In this document: positions 702 to 12,000 of the stretch, piece after piece
Layout of the letters: every line of letters starts with the position of its first letter
Position numbering within the stretch: the first letter of the stretch is position 1
Origin: Liolophura sinensis
Lineage: Eukaryota; Mollusca; Polyplacophora; Chitonida; Chitonidae
Direction of reading: 5' to 3'
Assembly (NCBI RefSeq): GCF_032854445.1
Contig: NC_088303.1
Span: 18,049,501 to 18,113,500, forward strand
DNA length: 64,000 nt
Notes under the pieces: generated by a model
What the model was told of the DNA's origin: nothing
The model's input: the letters and a program-made list of their open reading frames with translations, nothing else
Databases searched by the model: none
Made by a program: the position numbers and the translations under genes

Positions 702-3700
702 TGCCTGCTTGGCCTTCATCAGTTTAAACCTGTCAAAGTCGGTGAGCTTTGTCCTCTGTAAATTAAAACAAGAGTGTCATGAAAAAACAAGATGTAAAAT
801 GTTTGAAAAACAGTACATGGTGAAAGCAGATGATCTGTTCACCTGTCAGATTAAGAATTGTCTTTCAGTTGATATTTCAGACGGCAATTCCTATCAACAA
901 AGGCTCATCATTTAGGTGAACAGTCAGCCAGGTACATTACCAACCTAAATAATGATTTGTATGCTTGGGGTTTAACACTGAACTTAATAATTTTTCACAT
1001 GATGACGAGGTGTCATTAGGTGCGTGTACATATACTTTGTATCTTCTTGTGTTTGTATACAGAACATGATGAGATAGTAGGCCATATGAGGAAGTCAAAC
1101 TGCCCATTTTGAAGGGTTACAGAATCAATGCTGATTGGCTCACCACCATTGAGGTCTGATTTCCCTGGCTGTAGCTTTGATCATGTTTCAATGATTGTAC
1201 AGTACCTAACATTTAGTTCAGCCTATGAGCCAGGATTTGAACACAGCTTATTTTACTCTGGTCTCATTGCCAGGGGCGGAAAGGGGATTGTGGGAGCAGG
1301 TAGAGACAGAAAGCTCTAAACACCCCCAAAGGTCAAAATTCAGGTGAGAAGTAAAAGCAGGGAGTTTAAAAAATAGCATTACAAATATATCTGATATAGG
1401 CTCGGTTCAACAGCGAGTGAGTGAGTGTTTGGGATTTAACGTAGTACTTAACAATTTTTCAGTCATATGACGACGAAGGAATCCTTAGAGTTCATGTAAT
1501 GTGTCTCCTTGTTGCAGTACGGATTTCCACCGCTCTTTTATCTAGTGCTGCTTCACTGAGACGCCTTACCAAAGGCAAGTAAGCCGCCCCGCCCGAGCCA
1601 TTATCCTGATACGCGTCAACCAGTCGATGCACTATCCCCATCATGCTGAACGCCAAGCGAGGAAGTTACAACTTCCTCTTTTAAGGTCTTAGATGTGACT
1701 TGAGCCAGGATTTGACCCTGGATCTACCGCTCCTGAAGCAGACACTCTACACACTGTGCCGGTCAACAGTAATGGATACTTTATTTCTACTGGATCTATA
1801 TATACTGTATTGCACCTAAACTTTGGAATGTAGAAATGCACTTTCCAACGCATGTAGAAGTCCTAAAATTACACATCTGATGTCAACAGTTAAACTTAAA
1901 GTTTTCTGATACGAAATGAATTAAACTTTACAAAAAACAACTCATAAATGGCACTATAAAGTGAATGAATCAATCAGAATCAAACAAAATGTGTCACTTA
2001 AAAAATATTACAGTAATAGTGTGTTGTCCACTGAAGGAAGCCCTGATTTCTTCTGCAATACCAGGAAAATGAAAGAACTTTCGCATGTCAGATTAGAGAT
2101 TGTCTTCAGTCTAGATCAGACGGCAATTCCTATCAACAAAGGCTCATCATCCATGTGAAAGTGCTATTATACACGACTGACAAAATATCCACTATAGTCT
2201 TCCTGTAACTTTCACTTCCATTTTCCAGTAAAAAGAGATCAGCTCGTGTAAGGACATGGTTACACAACAGCATGATTAACCAGATTGCCATGTGGCAGGA
2301 AAACTTACCTAATTGGATACAGTTGTATTAGATCATAGTAAAACAAAATTGTGTTTATCAACAATGTCAGAGTTATGTCAGAGTGACTAGTGTCCAAACT
2401 AAAAATCTGTTTTACGACACCACTGGCAGATATATGGAAGGTGAGGATTAAGGACGTGAAAACTATTGCACTTGACCAGATACCAGACAAATGTCTTCAT
2501 ACTAGAAACCAACACAAGACCTTGTGCATCTAATGTTTTTAATAGAAGGTGGCTGATCTGACTAATATCTGAATTCATGAAATTTTCTTGACATTGCAAA
2601 TGGTGTAAATGACACCATAATGGCAAAGGCATTTGTGACGTAGTGACACCATCAGACACAAATACAGCATTATGCACAAAATGTTATATCTTTGTACATG
2701 TCAAACCACCACACTAAGGCCTTCAGAAAAGATCCATAAAACTCAGGTGTCAACGTACCCTTTCCCGAGCTGCCAGTTTCTTTGCCCATGTTGTCTCTTC
2801 CCATTTCTGTGTGATCTCCTTGGCCTCCCATGCTTTCTTCACTGTGCCAGTACGTGCAGAGTGGAGAATTGGGATTTTGAACTTGGTTAAATTCAAGGCC
2901 TTGAAGTTCATACTTTTGCGTCCCACACCTGAGCAGGGTCCATCCACCAAAGCCTGTACAAAACATCATAAACAGGTGTCAAACACTACGATCTCAGCGT
3001 GCCGACAGGACTACTGTATGTGAATTTGAATATGAACTTTCTTTAACATCTTTCATTATCTGATTACGGTTTTATCGCCGAGCTTAAAAATTTTTTCGTT
3101 TAACCTTCAAATTAGTGAGCTGTGAAAGTTAAGGAGAGCCTAACAGTAACGACAAAGCCTTAGCCAAACAATGGGAGCTGGATTTCAACATCAGACCCTA
3201 TTGGTCAATGCCATGTTGTCTGCAGTGACAAGAGTGATTATGATTACTACAGCTGCATCTTCACTGAAAACCGATAATTAACCAAATTACCTGATAGCTG
3301 AAAGTAACTCCTTAGTCATACAAGAGATGTTAACAGAAAAATTTACCAGTCAGATTCAGAAATGTCATTCAGTTAAATTTCAGACGGCAATTCCTATCAA
3401 CAGATGTTCATCATCCTGGTGGTGTTCAGATTAAACATCAACCTTTTCAGAATATACTTTCAAAATATCAGCAAATCGTGCCTGAAGAATTATCAGGCAT
3501 TACATCCACCTTCACAAACCTTCCAGGGAATTATAGCACTCACCCTATTTTGGTCAATGACATCAACGATGACGCACAGTTTCCCTTCATCTGGGCCAAA
3601 GGCAATAAAGGCCACCCGGCCGATTTCCACAAGGCGTTCCAACACCTGTGCACAGAAAAGAATGGAATGAAAGAACAAAACACACTGTCAGCCATGAAAT

Positions 3701-5788
3701 CCAATCCTGTCAGTGGTGCCTGAAAAAAGTTCACACACAAATAACATAGATTATATTGAAAACACCAACTGGATAAAATGGGTTTTTAGATTTGTTGGCT
3801 ACGCCCCAAAAAGTCATTTGCAGGTCTGCAGTGATGTGTTACCTAGATATGTATTTGATTTTTGTATTGTCTAGCATGCTATAATTTCAGGTTACCAGGC
3901 ATAGTCTAGGTGATCCACTGAACAGCTCAGAATAATAAACAAGCAAAGTAACTCTTAAGAAATTCATTTTTATGACCTCAATATTTCAACTTTAAGTCAT
4001 ATTCGACTTTAATAAACTCAAAACACTGAGATCGTCAAAATGAATTTCTTTGCAATCACTTATTTATCAGGCCTAGTTCTCACAATTTCATACAATGTTC
4101 TTCACTTACCTAACCCCTTCCATGTTATCTCTCACTTCTTACTTATTAATAATTACTTTAATAGTACCTACATGTGTAAGGCCATGACACTAAAACTATA
4201 AATCAATGAAAGCTTTCACGTGTCAGATTAGAGATTGTCTTCAGCCTAGATCAGACGGCAATTCCTATCAACAAAGGCTCATCATTCACGTGAATCTTTC
4301 CTTTATACACTCTAGGTGTTTTACCTAAAGCGACAGATTCTCAAGAAAAAATATGAGAGATTGTCTTTGACAATTTTTGTGTCACTGGGCCCTATGCATT
4401 TTGTTTTGACTATAGTTAAGAATCGGTTGCTACCATGTGTTGCAGGATGTTAATTCACTAAGAAATCTGCATTTCACAGCACCCGATTCTTTACTTGTGC
4501 CATTGTTTTCCCATTATAGTTGTATTCTTCATCTTGTAGATTCCCCGTTGAGTAACTGAGCGCTTGGGGTTTAATGTCGAACTTAACAATTTTCAATCAT
4601 ATGTCGACGAAGGAATCCTTAGAGTTCATGTAATGTGCCTCCTTGTTGCAGGACGGATTTCCACCGCTCTATTATCTAGTGCTGCTTCACTAAGACGCCT
4701 TACTGAACGAAAGTAAGCAGTCCCGCCCGAGCCATTATACCGATAACCAGTGTCAACCAGTCATTGCACTTTCCCTTTCATGCTGAACGCCAAGCAAGAA
4801 AGTTACAACTGCCGCATTTTAAGGTCTTGGGTGTGACTCGACCCAGGATTGACACTGGATCTACCGGTCCGGAAGCAGACGCTCTACCACCAAGATCCCC
4901 GTCGAAGTCACATATCTGCTGATCTGTATCTAATTTGTATCTTTGTTTATACTGGATATAGCACAACAATGACACAACATAGATGATCAGTAACACAACT
5001 AAAACTGACCAAATCATCTGCTAAAGACATGGCAAAGTATGTAAGTGAAACGTCCACATCTTTTCCTATTTCCCATATACATATATACATGCTGCAATTT
5101 GCAAGAGAATTGATCTAATCCCCGTGCCAGGTCAAAATCTGTATCTTACTGCAAAAGTATGCACAAGCCAGAAGTATAAACGACAGAATGATTTGGATAG
5201 CATCGGACGAGGAAATGTGTGTCAACAATGAAAGCGCGCATTGCTTCGAGTCTATTCTATACAGTAGATACCTAAAGGTGGGGTTGCAGGCCGACGTTTT
5301 CAACCTTTCCTTTATGAAAGGCTTATGGCAGAGGGTATGGCATAGTGTATAGCATAACACTATCTACTGATCTCATACAACTCGCAAGACCCTTTGGTTC
5401 TATTTCTAGGCATAGTTCTGGAGCTAGTTAACACTCATCGAAGAGAGCAGTGCCTGTCAACTGTTCAAGGGTTCTTGCTCACTGTACTCAATTTGTACTC
5501 GTATACATTATTCTGACAATGCCGGAAAAGTCCGAAATGTGTTTAAGGGGAAAAAAAAAGGTAGGAAATGTATTTAGCATGTGCACGTGTCTGCCAGCCA
5601 TTCGGACTGTATGGAAACAAAACGCCATCATAAATAAGTCCACTGTTCCTTGAGCAAACAATTTTAATTCCCAAATGTTCAAAATAACCCAAACTTTGAC
5701 GTGAGCCCGTGTTCACTCGATTTTCATTATTGTTTTGCTTCACAAAAGCCAATTTTCAGACGTTCACGTGTGGACATATCCTCACCAT
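702..5788 (-). CDS. RPL14: Ribosomal protein L14 (eL14), 5' part of gene, 3' end off window
   Basis: Structural protein of the large ribosomal subunit. Four coding exons on the minus strand: exon 1 holds the 5' UTR and only the ATG (5788-5786, then donor GTGAGG); exon 2 is 3645-3544 (34 codons); exon 3 is 2953-2759 (65 codons); exon 4 is 755-702 (18 codons). All junctions are phase 0, giving 118 codons so far. Exon 2 reads [18 protein letters not shown] then VIDQNR, the KOW-like N-terminus of eL14, and the first 35 residues match the length I remember for human RPL14. Exon 3 starts [17 protein letters not shown] and exon 4 carries [16 protein letters not shown] pyrimidine run (CCTTCCTTTTC, about 5814-5804) marks a TOP-type transcription start, giving a 5' UTR of about 26 nt. 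The basic C-terminal exon(s) must lie left of base 1. The introns host four C/D snoRNAs and two SINEs. Identification is confident. Confidence 0.95.
835..923 (-). ncRNA. C/D box snoRNA copy 1, RPL14 intron 3
   Basis: On the minus strand this unit has a perfect 10-bp terminal stem (914-923 with 835-844), a C box ATGATGA (905-911), a D' box CTGA (877-880), a C'-like box CTGAAAGA and a D box CTGA (846-849). That is the full C-guide-D'-C'-guide-D order of a box C/D 2'-O-methylation guide RNA. It ends 80 nt upstream of RPL14 exon 4, the usual distance for intron-processed snoRNAs. The guide before D' is shared with the three other RPL14 copies. The target is not identified. Box assignment comes from the sequence; function is inferred. 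Confidence 0.8.
962..1012 (-). mobile_element. SINE family B tail fragment next to snoRNA copy 1
   Basis: CTTGGGGTTTAACACTGAAC then TTTTTCACATGATGACGA is the minus-strand tail of family B. It lies about 40 bp 5' of snoRNA copy 1 in transcript order. Confidence 0.7.
1414..1762 (-). mobile_element. Full-length tRNA-derived SINE, family B, RPL14 intron 3
   Basis: Read on the minus strand, a tRNA-like head is followed by a B-box-like GGGTCAAATCCTGG, a body with the perfect hairpin GAGGAAGTTGTAACTTCCTC, and the tail CATATGACTGAAAAATTG...GTTAAATCCCAAACACTCA. It is flanked by TCAACAG duplications (1407-1413 and 1763-1769). Confidence 0.85.
2078..2161 (-). ncRNA. C/D box snoRNA copy 2, RPL14 intron 3
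   Basis: Second C/D unit in the same intron as copy 1. C box ATGATGA at 2144-2150, D' CTGA at 2116-2119, C'-like CTGAAGA, D CTGA at 2088-2091. The terminal stem is 10 bp with one mismatch (2152-2161 with 2078-2087). Its second guide (CAATCTCTAAT) is identical to that of copy 4 and differs from copies 1 and 3. Two snoRNAs in one intron is unusual in animals, so one may be processed less efficiently. Confidence 0.78.
3345..3420 (-). ncRNA. C/D box snoRNA copy 3, RPL14 intron 2
   Basis: C box ATGATGA at 3408-3414, D' CTGA at 3380-3383, C'-like CTGAATGA, D CTGA at 3350-3353, with a short terminal stem ACCAG/CTGGT (3345-3349 with 3416-3420). This is the most diverged of the four copies: CATCTGTTG replaces the usual CCTTTGTTG next to the C box, and the second guide is CATTTCTGAAT. 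The D'-side guide is unchanged. It lies in the intron between RPL14 exons 2 and 3, about 390 nt before the acceptor. Confidence 0.72.
4215..4294 (-). ncRNA. C/D box snoRNA copy 4, RPL14 intron 1
   Basis: C box ATGATGA at 4279-4285, D' CTGA at 4251-4254, C'-like CTGAAGA, D CTGA at 4223-4226, with a perfect 8-bp terminal stem TTCACGTG/CACGTGAA (4215-4222 with 4287-4294). Both guide regions match copy 2, so these two are the closest pair. It lies in RPL14 intron 1, about 570 nt upstream of the exon 2 acceptor. Confidence 0.8.
4553..4892 (-). mobile_element. Full-length tRNA-derived SINE, family B, RPL14 intron 1
   Basis: Same element as at 1414-1762. The head shows A box TGGTAGAGCGTCTGC and B box GGGTCGAGTCAC, and the tail ends GTTAAACCCCAAGCGCTCA. 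A diverged duplication of about 14 bp (AGATTCCCCGTTGA and AGATCCCCGTCGAA) flanks it. Confidence 0.85.
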
Positions 5789-6076
5789 GGTCAAATTGTG
5801 GCCGAAAAGGAAGGTGCAGGATGTGACGTCACTCGAGAAGCCATGTGGGATAAAGGTACGAACATTTTTGTGTTCCGGCGTATAAACAATACCTAAAACG
5901 TACATTAATTGTGTCAGACTAATTGGTTTTGTTCATGTTTTCCTTTCAGTTATGATTTCCAAAAGTATACGTCATAAAATACAAAATTGTCTTCAAATAA
6001 ATGTACGAGTCATTACACAAGGTTCCGTTAATTTCTTGGCACAGTTGTGCAAAGAAAAAAGTCGTCTGCAAGAGCC
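5789..6076. promoter_or_regulatory. Bidirectional RPL14/LDHD promoter and 5' UTRs
   Basis: The two start codons face away from each other with 288 bp between. The stretch holds a perfect CRE palindrome TGACGTCA (5824-5831) about 10 bp upstream of the RPL14 TOP start, followed by CTCGAG (5833-5838). An E-box CACGTG (5765-5770) lies just inside RPL14 intron 1. There is no TATA box in a useful place on either side. The LDHD transcription start is not visible; the rest of this interval is presumably its 5' UTR. Confidence 0.7.
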
Positions 6077-9000
6077 ATGCTTAAACTTAGGAATATTTTT
6101 CGACGCAGTTCTGCGTTGAAAACCTTCACTTTGGGTGTTGCAAGATGTCTTCAGCACACAGAGGTCAGTGCAAGTCATAATTTCTGAAATTTAAGCTTGA
6201 TATGTGGTAAATCGCTAGGTAAATCCTGTGGCAAAGTTGTTGATAATGACAACTGAGAAAACTCATCATGAAATAGCCGACATTGTCAAAGTAATGAACT
6301 GTTAATATCTCGCTTAAAGGGGAACTGCGGTATTTTTAATTTTCGCACAGATTGTTATCATCAGGCTTCTCCTGTTAGTGTATAAGATTGTGGATGTTTT
6401 CTTTGTGAAAATAAGTCATGAAGTACCGGTTTTGTTTGGCGAAATTTTGCTCGGCCATCCTTTGCCCCATACTAACGTCAGAGCGCGCAACATTGGAAAA
6501 CCTGATGCAGTTATCTGTCCTTGTTGGAAAAAAAAAGGCCATGTCGAGGCTGGCAGTACGACAGGCAATCATTACTGATCGACGTTGTACTTGCAATGAA
6601 GCCATTATAATCAACAGAGAGAAAGTTAAAGTGCTACTTCAGTCTCAAGAAACCAGGATGAAAATACTACGTTAAACCCCAAGAATACATACATACAATT
6701 CATTATTTAGATTGGTAATATAGCTGATTGACTTTTCACCTGAATGATTAACCTTTGCTCATAGGAATTACCGTTCAAAATATCAACTGAAAGACAATTC
6801 TTAAATAGAATTTTTGAAGAATTATTTCAACATCATTTGGAGACATACAGCATCCCCAGGCCTTAACAGGATATAAATTTGACGTTACTGTCAACTATAG
6901 TATTCATATTGCCATTGGCTTTATTTCACTCTCTTAACCCAGCCCCTAACATATTTACACCTCAGAATAAGCTATTCCATCATTGTGCATACCACTTTCC
7001 AGTAGTAACATAATACCACAATTTTTATGAATAAGCACTCCATATACCTCTCGCTAGTCAAATGCTCATCATAACGTTTATTCTCATCACCCTACAATGT
7101 ACCCTGTGACGTCAAAGCTCAGGACTGTTACAACCGTTCGATACACTATATTTTGTTGCTGCGCTTCCCTTGCTATGTGATGTGTTACTGTATATATGAC
7201 CAGTCGTAAACCAGATGTCTTTGTAATGCACCTGATGTCACTTACAGAGCTTGCAGAAGACATAAAGGAACCAGACAGCTGTATCATGCTACCTGTCAAA
7301 ATGTTAAGCAACTATTTTTGATTTGTTTTACTATAACATGGTAATCTGTAAACAGTTTCACAAATAGTTATTTATATCATATTTATTTATTTGATTGATC
7401 TGTTACGCTGTGCTCAAGAATATGCTTAGAGTAAAAAAACATTGCATCTCGTATTTCATTTTACCTCCTGTGGCAGCACCACGAATCAGATTTACATGTT
7501 TGCAACTGATAAACATGTCATCAGATATACCAGTATAATACTGTTGCACAGAGCAGTGATTTACATGTAACTATAAGTTCTGGTATAACAGGTAACTATG
7601 ATTGTGTACCTAAAAATAATCGCAAAGAAGGCGAGTTATTTACAATGAGGAAGCCAATGAAGGCACAATGAACTATAAATTAAAACAGTTATCTGTGTTG
7701 GTCATGTACAATTTGAATCATTAGTTTACATACACATATGTTCTGATATGTGAAAAGAACATTTGAAGTTGCATTGTTACATCTGGCGTTGTTACATCTG
7801 AGGAAATAATGAACTTTGCTCACAATGGCAGATAACAAATGTAGATTATACAGTGTTGCCATATTGGATATTTCTTGTAGCAAAATTCACTTTATCTAAC
7901 ATCTGAAACAGTTATTTGATGACCCATTCTATGTAGGCGTATGATGGAGTAAAACACCTATTAGATAAATAAATAATTGTAGACCTGTGACAAGTTTGCT
8001 TTTCACACATCTACAGTGTATATAACCTTTATTGTGCCTTGTTTTGACTTCCTTCCCTAAAACCATAACTTGCCCTCATTGCATTTTCGTGCAATAATTT
8101 TTCGAGATTATGTGGTAGATGTAAAGTATAGAATCGATCAATGCAGTTGGGAGAGCTGGGAAAATCCCCCCCCCCCATCTCCTCACAAATACTATCTTAT
8201 TCTTTATGAAATATACACAAATCTGGACCTCATCCTCTACTGACAATGAATGTTACCCTTAGCCATATTTTGAAGTGTTCAATTCTAGCCACAGGCATGG
8301 AATTTCAAGATTCCTTCACTCTCATTGTTCGTGGGGCTTTTGTGACTGGTCAGTCACAGAAGCAGAGTTAGTTCCATATCGTTGGTATTTAAAAGTTATC
8401 ATGCTGCAGTTTTGTTGAGAGTTACTGACAGTGTCACAATGAATACCAGAACTTTAAAATGTTGCAGAAAAATTAACCCTGTTTAATACCACAGCTTCAC
8501 AAGAAAACGAAAAAAAAAAAAGAAAAAAAAACTAGAAAAACAAACAAAGACATTGAATTTCCATGTTATATTATGGTTCAGAGGAACGTGGACCTGTATT
8601 GAAGTGGTGCAAAAAATGTGGGTAGAGTAGTAGATATAGCATCTTAGATAAATTGCGGTGTCAGCATTTCTTTGTTTATATATGCTAAAGCATTTTCTTG
8701 CATCTCTCTTGTAGGCAGCCTCTGCACCAAACAGAATATCCTCATCAGTTGTGGAATCACTTGCAGCAGTTGTTGGGGAGAAACAGGTGTCATCTGCTGT
8801 GGCAATTAGAGATCAGCATAGCCATGATGAGTCACATCACAGGTGATCTGCAATTAATGAATATTATGTCAGAGTTCTGAAATTCATTCAGTTTAAATCA
8901 TAATTTTGCTTTGCTTTGTTTAGCTTAAATATGAAAAAAGATTAGGTCAAGACCTTGTCTTTTTCTGTTCTATTTTTAGATTTTCATTAAAAATAGAAAT

Positions 9001-12000
9001 AAATCTTAAAGTATAAGTTTATTATTTATCTGTAATTAGATGCAGCTTTAGAAGTTTGTTAGGTTGGTAGTCCACAATCTGAGAATCTCACAATGTATTT
9101 GCTATACATGTAGATCATAATTCATAGTTTATGTGAAACAACTTTGTTGTGCCTTGAAGATATAGTTATCTGTCTAGCCTGCCTTACTTATTTTGTATGA
9201 TATGAAGTTATGTCTGTGGCTACCTTCATATCTGTTCACAGTATGATATTGTCAGGTAGTGTGTTTGCATTACTGTGACCTAATGATCTACATCAGAAGT
9301 TCAGAGGTTGTAATCTTAGACCCAAAACTTCATCTTATGTTACATGGTCAGGTGAAAGAGATTTAACCATGTACGTGTAGTGCTACCTACACGCCCCTGG
9401 CTATTTGGTGTTTAGAGACATTGAATCTCCCTCTGCTGCTATAAGTGTTAATAGACTTCAATTCAATATATAAATGACTAAAGTATTTATCTTAAAATTG
9501 ATTCTATGCACAAAAGAGACGTGGAGGTCGTGCATTTGGTAATTTACTATGATTTAATCCACATTCAGGCATCAACAGTAACACTCCCTTATTATATTTT
9601 TTACATGTCAGCAAAACCTGAGCTCAATACATGCAGTACTTCTTGAGATACCAAACCAAACATTAACCTTAACATTGATTATATTATGCACAAGACAACA
9701 TGGGTTGAAGTTTGTAATTTAAGGTAATAAGTTCATCAAAGTACATCAACTATAGAACATCTCCCTCACATTTTTGTGCTTTACATGTATACATGTATTG
9801 GGGTCATTCAATACATGAAGTACTTTTCAGATACCACCCGTAACATTTACCTTTTATTAGATGACTTTCATTGTTACTGGACACCAACACTGGGGATATA
9901 CAAATGATAGTAGCTAAGTATGTGCATATTCATTGGGAACATCCCAACTGATCCTCCAAAAAAGGGCCGTACTCAAAGTTTCTGATGGGGTTTTAATAAG
10001 ATGGTCTTTTTTCTTAATGTTTGTTTAACATCCTTATCCTTTTCATATAAAACCAGAGTGTTAAAAAAAAAATATCTACCGACCTTCAGCCGCTTACCCT
10101 ATTTTTTCTGATGGTATCAGATTATGCTAACAAGGTGTTTTGTAAGGATAACCTGACCTGAAAAAGTGTTGTGATTGTTAACATATTGTCAAAGTATAAA
10201 ATCTAGCCCTTGCTTGCAGCAGTTTCACATATATGATGACCATTTTGGAACATTAATGGCAATCCCTTGTCTTTCTTAAGCGATACCTGAAATGTAATTG
10301 TTTTGAACTAATTTGGTTTGTGACATCATCTGACATGTATGGATACAAGAAGTATTTCAGTTTTCGTATTACAATGTTCAAATGGCTTTAAAGGTAATGC
10401 TCTTTGTTTATCTCGAGTGCTTTATCATATTTTACTTTATGCTACTTCAGGTGTTTGCTATCTGACCAGATTTATACCCATTCGTAAAACTTAAAGGTTT
10501 TCAAATGTAGATACATTAGTCTCATACTGTTAATTCTGATTCATCTGCAGTTGGTACTTGCCAGACTTGGTTGTTTTTCCGAAAACTGTGGAAGAAGTCA
10601 GTCAGGTGGCACGAATATGTTATGACAATGAGCTGCCAATCATCCCATTTGGCTCCGGAACCGGTCTTGAGGGAGGAGTCAATGCTGAAGTTGTGAGTAG
10701 ACCAGTTAAGCTGTTCACATATATCTAAATGTTAAACATATTCTTTCAGAAAGAAAATTTAACATTTAATTTTGTATATGAATTTTTGCAATTAATTGCA
10801 TTGTCAGATTATGGTTAGTGTTAATGTAGTTAAAAGACTTGTCATTTTGAATGTGTTTTATTAGAGTATGCTTTGTAGAACTGTATTGTTAGGTTTTGCT
10901 TTTTATGGGCAGGGTGGTGTGTGCATTGACTTGAACAAAATGGACCGAATCCTGTCTGTTCACCCTGAGGACTTTGACTGTACCGTGGAGGCAGGAGTAT
11001 TAAGGAAGACCCTCAATAATTACCTGCGTGACACTGGTCTCTGGTTTCCTATAGGTTAGTGCTACGAATACTCTCATATCTTAGTCTTTGCGCATGTTAC
11101 ATTGTTGAGTCTGAGGGGTTTTTTTCAGGGTCGACTCAGGGATTGCAATTGTTTATGATAATGGGTTTATTAAATAGTTTATAATGGCTACCTAAATTTA
11201 GATAAAAGAAAGATTCTGCACTGACTGCTGGGGACTTACGAAAACTGTAGTTTAGAGCCGTTTTTAAGCCCCAAAAGAAAACTGAACATTTAAGCACTTT
11301 TGTTCTTTTATATGTTAATTCATATCATATACTCCATATTAAGAAATAAGAACAAGCATTTCATGTATTCTTTAAGAATGTGTGACTAAATATTACTTAA
11401 ATTAAGTAATTAGTTTAGACTACATCATTTCAGTATTTTCTTACATTTGATGCATGGGGCGTCCGTGTCCAAGGCGATTAGCCTGCCAGCAGTTTCCTCC
11501 TGCCATAATGCTGGCCGCTGTCATATAAGTGAAATATTCTTGAACACGGCATAAAACATCAATCAAATAAATAAATCAGATTAATTCATTTGGTGCAGAT
11601 GATTATAGTGGCCTCCGTTGCCAAGTTTTTAGCATGGTAGCACTGCACAGTGACTCAGAAGCCTCTCACCAATGCGGTGGCTGCAAGTTCAAGTTCAGTT
11701 CATGCTGGATTCCTTTCCGATGGAGGGGTTTGTGAGAAGGTCTGTCAGCAACCTGAGGATGATATGTGTTGGTCTCTAAACTTTAAATTATTTCACGGCA
11801 TTTTTCTGTTCGGACTGTTTTTCTGAACTTCATCAAATGGTGAATCAGTCCGGAAAACCTTTGTTTTGTGCCAATACTTGGAGAAAATATTGAAGGAAAA
11901 ATAGTAATTCCTAGATGTTAATTTCAGTGATAACAGTTCAGTTAGAATATTTTTGCATGTTAAATCATGTTTGTGAAATGAACTGTATATATTTTCAGAC

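Follow-up and report, generated by a model that had tools for sequence, protein, structure and literature searches.

Guides of the SNORD65/snR77/snoR77Y type are entered, in the accessible parts of published tables, for plants, fungi, an amoeba and vertebrates. The nucleotides assigned to yeast snR77 (Um578; RF01181), plant snoR77Y (Um580; RF01178, clan CL00057) and HBII-135, or SNORD65 (Um627; RF00571, clan CL00057), correspond to one site, as given in the available sections of the reports (PMC3511168, PMC8817022, PMC2780460). In chicken, the excerpt of PMC2653536 places a single copy of HBII-135/SNORD65 in intron 4 of the mRNA CR391615. Ribosomal-protein genes are described in the sections at hand as a usual kind of snoRNA host, and C/D paralogues in multiple copies across the introns of one such gene are represented by U18 in introns 2, 5 and 6 of chicken RPL4 and by SNORD58A/B/C in human RPL17 (PMC2653536, PMC8178906, in part). 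The available part of PMC13228274 names RpL14 among the snoRNA hosts of Drosophila S2 cells, and within the accessible portions of the open-licence literature no report was found of a SNORD65/snR77-type guide in RPL14.

Here we describe four units (c1 to c4) in the introns of RPL14 within a 64-kb stretch of DNA, hereafter the window. The arrangement is like that of U18 and SNORD58, but the family and the host differ, and a four-copy guide in a ribosomal-protein host is an ordinary, well-known arrangement of which this locus is a new example. The units are likely to be intron-encoded C/D snoRNAs of the SNORD65/snR77/snoR77Y type that guide methylation of 18S rRNA and were duplicated within RPL14. 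If this is true, a host gene and a copy number not found in the literature covered are added for a known methylation guide, together with a local example of copy spread, within one gene and, in broken form, into its neighbour.

Organization of the RPL14-LDHD locus

RPL14 is transcribed from the minus strand. The start codon at 5786..5788, at the end of exon 1 and followed by the donor GTGAGG, exon 2 (3544..3645), exon 3 (2759..2953) and exon 4 (702..755) are separated by intron 1 (3646-5785, carrying c4), intron 2 (2954-3543, carrying c3) and intron 3 (756-2758, carrying c2 and c1). Spliced together, these four exons encode a stretch of 118 amino acids that matches Pfam Ribosomal_L14e (1.2e-29) and PDB eL14 chains (best 7.6e-49), and the host gene named in the preliminary description is thereby borne out. 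The last coding exon is probably located about 220 bases ahead of the window start (on L023), and no snoRNA copy was seen in intron 4. Further downstream of RPL14, a 66-nt unit is repeated in tandem about 25 times (L023 1591-3251, some 2.8-4.4 kb ahead of the window start).

On the plus strand, the probable first coding exon of LDHD (D-lactate dehydrogenase), assigned from the reading frame, occupies 6077..6163, and the gene name is based on the exons at 10552-10692 and 10913-11053. The two genes are in head-to-head orientation, their start codons lying about 290 bases apart (window positions 5786-6163), and perhaps share a promoter region.

The introns of RPL14 also contain SINE-like repeats at 1415-1760, 4550-4890 and about 951-994, the name SINE being our interpretation; two of these are 91% alike over 156 nt, and one gave a tRNA match below the cut-off (21.9 of 29 bits). 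An inverted repeat with 49-nt arms, 73% complementary, is located in intron 1 at 3946-4061 and gave a sub-threshold match to MIR7504 (34.2 of 83 bits).

Four paralogous units in the introns of RPL14

The four units, 76-89 nt in length, are located in the first 4.3 kb of the window and all on the minus strand, the sense strand of RPL14: c4 at 4215..4294 in intron 1, c3 at 3345..3420 in intron 2, and c2 at 2078..2161 and c1 at 835..923 in intron 3. The positions and strand given previously, with one unit each in introns 1 and 2 and two in intron 3, were confirmed. Copies c2 and c4 share 94% identity over 82 nt. A full set of C, D', C' and D boxes had been claimed for each unit: boxes C (AUGAUGA), D' (CUGA) and D (CUGA) are perfect and invariant in 4/4 copies, but the C' box is only degenerate, being CUGAAGA-like in c1-c4. 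In the same alignment, 17 of the 27 columns of the spacer between D' and D are variable.

Each unit is closed by a terminal stem. Letter-by-letter reading reproduced the pairing reported before, that is, 10/10 in c1 (835-844 with 914-923), 9/10 in c2 (2078-2087 with 2152-2161), 5/5 in c3 (3345-3349 with 3416-3420) and 8/8 in c4 (4215-4222 with 4287-4294). The compensating changes proposed for these stems were also found, since both sides are changed in three of the nine aligned pairs of only four sequences, and the covariation score was reached by 2/500 shuffles. The percentage paired, 80.6% of 36 cells as against 22-44% after sliding the partner by 1-3 columns, was likewise reached by 2/500 shuffles; three pairs changed on both sides were also obtained in 41/500 shuffles, the alignment holding four sequences only.

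Both strands of the 64 kb were scanned for boxes C, D' and D combined with a stem of five or more consecutive Watson-Crick pairs. Three of the four copies, c1, c3 and c4, were recovered, c2 being missed because of its one stem mismatch; the same scan gave no other site on either strand of the 64 kb and none in 100 dinucleotide shuffles. The predicted single-strand folding was unusual for c1 alone (z -2.66; the other three, -0.29, 0.53 and -1.11). Between the 3' end of c1 and the 3' splice site there are about 80 nt, and the distance is about 390 nt for c3, 570 nt for c4 and 1320 nt for c2. Judged from the letters of the DNA, c1-c4 are best read as paralogous box C/D snoRNAs in RPL14 introns.

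Comparison with known snoRNA families

In the whole 64-kb window, no match reached an Rfam gathering score. A search of 3.8 kb at relaxed thresholds yielded 28 matches up to E 10, among which snoR77Y on c3 had the lowest E-value overall (36.6 bits, E 1.7e-4; cut-off 52); the other sub-threshold scores of snoR77Y were 32.1 bits on c4, 27.3 bits on c1 and 26.0 bits on c2. SNORD49 gave a better E-value than snoR77Y on both c1 (0.0013 against 0.041) and c2 (0.0027 against 0.09), and SNORD79 outscored snoR77Y in bits on c4 (34.7). Since other C/D families compete in this way, Rfam indicates C/D snoRNAs, and one family weakly.

Like the copies, snoR77Y has a D' guide, GGAAUUACCGU, followed by CUGA in equal register, and the distance from the C box to the GGAAUU core is 13 nt in both; it differs from them in its consensus A at guide position -5, where the copies have G, and is, by E-value, the top model for c3 and c4 but not for c1 and c2. 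The core common to snoR77Y and the copies, GGAAUU(A/G)CCGUCUGA, is also present in a weak match to TtnuCD7 (E 5.2). SNORD65/HBII-135 is alike in the target U of 18S, Um627 by register, and unlike in the 14 continuous pairs and the A at -5 of its consensus. Yeast snR77 is likened to the copies via its target site, Um578 by register, as given in the accessible part of PMC3511168. With no match at the gathering score and a best snoR77Y score of 36.6 of 52 bits, the copies were therefore typed by target register and are not Rfam-called members; on this basis they most likely belong to the SNORD65/snR77/snoR77Y type (clan CL00057).

When the SNORD65 model was applied to the whole genome (60 of 137072 candidates scored), 22 weak matches were listed, none at the RPL14 copies and none above the cut-off. 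SNORD65-like matches on contig C7 were rejected, as they lie inside a 43-nt tandem repeat. Such a repeat (L017 1176-1560) yields weak SNORD65 matches and is a possible annotation trap.

Predicted 18S target of the D' guide

The 3' part of the D' guide together with the D' box is located, on the minus strand, at 877..895 in c1, 2116..2134 in c2, 3380..3398 in c3 and 4251..4269 in c4, and the letters of c4 are common to c1, c2 and c3. An exact pattern for the species' own 18S found no match in the genome, in which the 18S may be unassembled. The complete, yeast-like 18S of a eukaryotic rDNA contig (L015) was used as a proxy, and the proxy rDNA as a whole consisted of six contigs chosen by a pattern containing the target. 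Six bacterial genome records (L011-L016) carry 18S of eukaryotic type, an apparent contamination.

Following the established biology of C/D snoRNAs, each snoRNA would be released from the spliced RPL14 intron and trimmed to its terminal stem, and would be bound by the standard C/D proteins. The D' guide GGAAUUGCCGU is predicted to pair with GCGGUAAUUCC in the 530-loop region of 18S, and in the register on the proxy 18S the nucleotide five before the D' box would face the U that corresponds to yeast Um578 and human Um627. With the -5 nucleotide opposite this U, the snoRNP would 2'-O-methylate it.

On the proxy, the -5 nucleotide stands opposite U578 within 11 contiguous pairs including the G.U. 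Eleven pairs in register with 578 were reached by 6/20000 shuffled guides, and 11 pairs in register anywhere on 18S by 398/1000; the real D' guide reaches 11 pairs in register at 18S position 155 as well, and an unguided complementarity search on 18S performed no better than shuffles. The assignment of the target is thus based on the register at the known site and on the shared core, and not on the length of pairing. Taken in this way, c1-c4 very probably guide a single highly conserved ribosomal position. The 5' half of the guide, GUUGAUAGG, is complementary to another stretch of 18S, CCUAUCAAC, present in 4/6 contigs, and this pairing is absent from the top two pairings of the complementarity search.

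No conservation is seen in the D guide, for which an rRNA target is improbable; in the proxy 18S and partial rDNA no target above shuffles was found for it, the longest in-register pairing being 8-9.

G at guide position -5

Guide position -5 is occupied by G in 4/4 copies and by A in the consensus of SNORD65, snoR77Y and TtnuCD7. By our own standard for the family, the U to be modified should form a Watson-Crick pair with A; in c1-c4, on the proxy 18S, it forms a G.U instead. With this wobble pair at the predicted methylation site, targeting may be weakened or changed. In an archaeal in vitro study, Watson-Crick pairing is reportedly called for at the modified nucleotide. GU is permitted at the terminal regions of predicted Arabidopsis duplexes according to the available part of PMC8053127, and the accessible sections of PMC12218551, PMC7994747, PMC6171561 and PMC5389607 gave no answer as to whether G.U is tolerated at the modified nucleotide.

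The duplex predicted with 18S consists of 14 continuous pairs (-24.8 kcal/mol) for the SNORD65 consensus, 13 pairs (-18.9 kcal/mol) for snoR77Y, and 11 pairs plus five across an internal loop (-18.4 kcal/mol) for the copies described here. The guide of c1-c4 is invariant across 19-20 nt, including the 8-nt GUUGAUAG, which is not paired in line by 18S; this stretch, picked post hoc, has no variable column, as against 17/27 in the D'-D spacer. The five further pairs are predicted between UGUUG and CAAUA, just downstream in the same 18S stretch, and this modelled contact may amount to additional base-pairing with 18S itself.

In view of the G.U at the modification site, it was considered that c1-c4 might be real C/D snoRNAs that have been retargeted, the invariant guide UGUUGAUAGGAAUUGCCGU serving another RNA or acting as a chaperone of 18S without methylating it. 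The G at -5 in all four copies would fit such a change, as would a guide that remains invariant past the 11 nt matching 18S in line (with the post hoc choice of GUUGAUAG) and a predicted 18S duplex of lower stability than that of the SNORD65 consensus; yet the snoR77Y consensus, which is assigned to the site in print, has nearly the same energy as the copies, and the guide extension may add its five UGUUG/CAAUA pairs on the same 18S stretch. A search of the genome for another RNA with the 17-nt guide complement found no exact match outside the four copies and two sites with one mismatch, equal to the two of the reversed control. Retargeting is unlikely on this evidence, and guidance of 18S methylation is retained as the preferred reading.

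A broader proposal, to which we give little credence, is that the Um627 guide was expanded in this lineage to four RPL14 copies with an A to G change at -5, an invariant guide of 19-20 nt and a second 5-nt contact with 18S, and that it would either tune the site, by methylating it in part or by acting as a chaperone of the 530 loop, with a dosage coupled to ribosomal-protein transcription, or serve a second RNA. If the snoRNA reading is true, the G.U that every one of the four copies retains at the position to be modified would be a natural test of the strictness of guide-target pairing in animals.

Distribution in the genome and spread of the copies

The guide and D' pattern GATAGGAATTGCCGTCTGA has four exact matches in 609 Mb, all at the RPL14 locus; at two mismatches, three more were found elsewhere, and two with the reversed-pattern control. 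A pattern of the C box plus guide gave nine matches in the genome, four of them c1-c4, and none with the reversed control. The other five have a CTGA D' box next to the guide in 0/5 cases, and with the sequence model of c1-c4 they scored at most 9.6 bits or were not among the matches listed. Neither these five nor five further loci exceeded 12.6 bits under the family model, compared with at least 49.1 bits for c1-c4 and a broken fifth copy, c5. As to another guide for the same 18S site, the exact pattern GGAATTACCGTCTGA had no match in the genome, a search by which a diverged guide would be missed.

Whole-unit DNA queries matched the RPL14 locus only, within about 6 kb, with three places listed for c4, three for c3 and two for c5; each query missed known copies, and diverged copies elsewhere may therefore be missed. 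Scatter over the genome in the manner of a transposon had been named in the preliminary description as evidence against snoRNAs, and the snoRNA reading withstands it, given the local confinement of both the exact guide matches and the whole-unit matches. A short transposon or a SINE-borne repeat merely resembling a snoRNA is highly improbable: the SINE-like repeats near c1 and c4, and the homology of c1 and c5 that starts in a tail shared by such repeats, speak for it, but all whole-unit matches fall within the 6 kb and the flanks of the units are not alike. With 60-nt flanks of c1-c4, 0/12 comparisons were at 2/200 shuffles or below, and with flanks of 60, 150 and 400 nt, 1/36; this single similarity was between the 400-nt 5' flanks of c1 and c4, in which SINE-like repeats are present. 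By eye, some 12 nt of 3' flank may be common to c2 and c4 (8/200 shuffles at 150 nt).

The preferred course of events is that the snoRNA copies arose by duplication inside RPL14 and that one partial copy reached LDHD, where it is now found broken. Either mature RNA or DNA may have been the template in the copying of c1-c4, whose flanks do not align.

A broken fifth copy in LDHD

A sequence-only model built from c1-c4 and run unfiltered on the window returned 36 matches with E-values of 10 or below. The four copies scored at E 2e-28 to 4e-27, and a fifth match, c5, was found on the plus strand at 6726-6809 (49.1 bits, E 2.2e-14), the 31 other matches being at E 0.07 or worse. With its 5' flank, c5 occupies 6692..6804 between the first two exons of LDHD, in sense orientation to that gene, and is 86% like c1 over 113 nt. 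Its C and D' boxes are changed, and the D box and the 3' side of the stem are not present. The homology of c1 and c5 starts about 40 nt upstream of the c1 stem, adjoining a common tail, GTTAAACCCCAAG, interpreted by us as a SINE tail, and ends just before the D box. Since it includes flank and stops before the D box, c5 is a truncated inverted copy, and what was copied extended beyond the mature RNA; c1 is the probable source, c5 being without a D box.

That decay takes place at this locus is demonstrated by c5, and together with the c3 stem of only 5 bp it raises the question of whether c1-c4 are themselves decayed or non-expressed duplicates, that is, snoRNA pseudogenes. We regard this as very unlikely, as 4/4 copies retain intact C, D' and D boxes and an intact guide while neighbouring positions vary, the terminal stem covaries, and exact patterns detected no other guide for the site, diverged guides escaping such patterns.

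The broken copy has A at -5. Retention of an ancestral A in c5 was considered and set aside as less parsimonious by our own count, the spacer and flank being shared with c1 and G being present in c1-c4. As c5 groups with c1, a later change to A in the broken copy is simpler.
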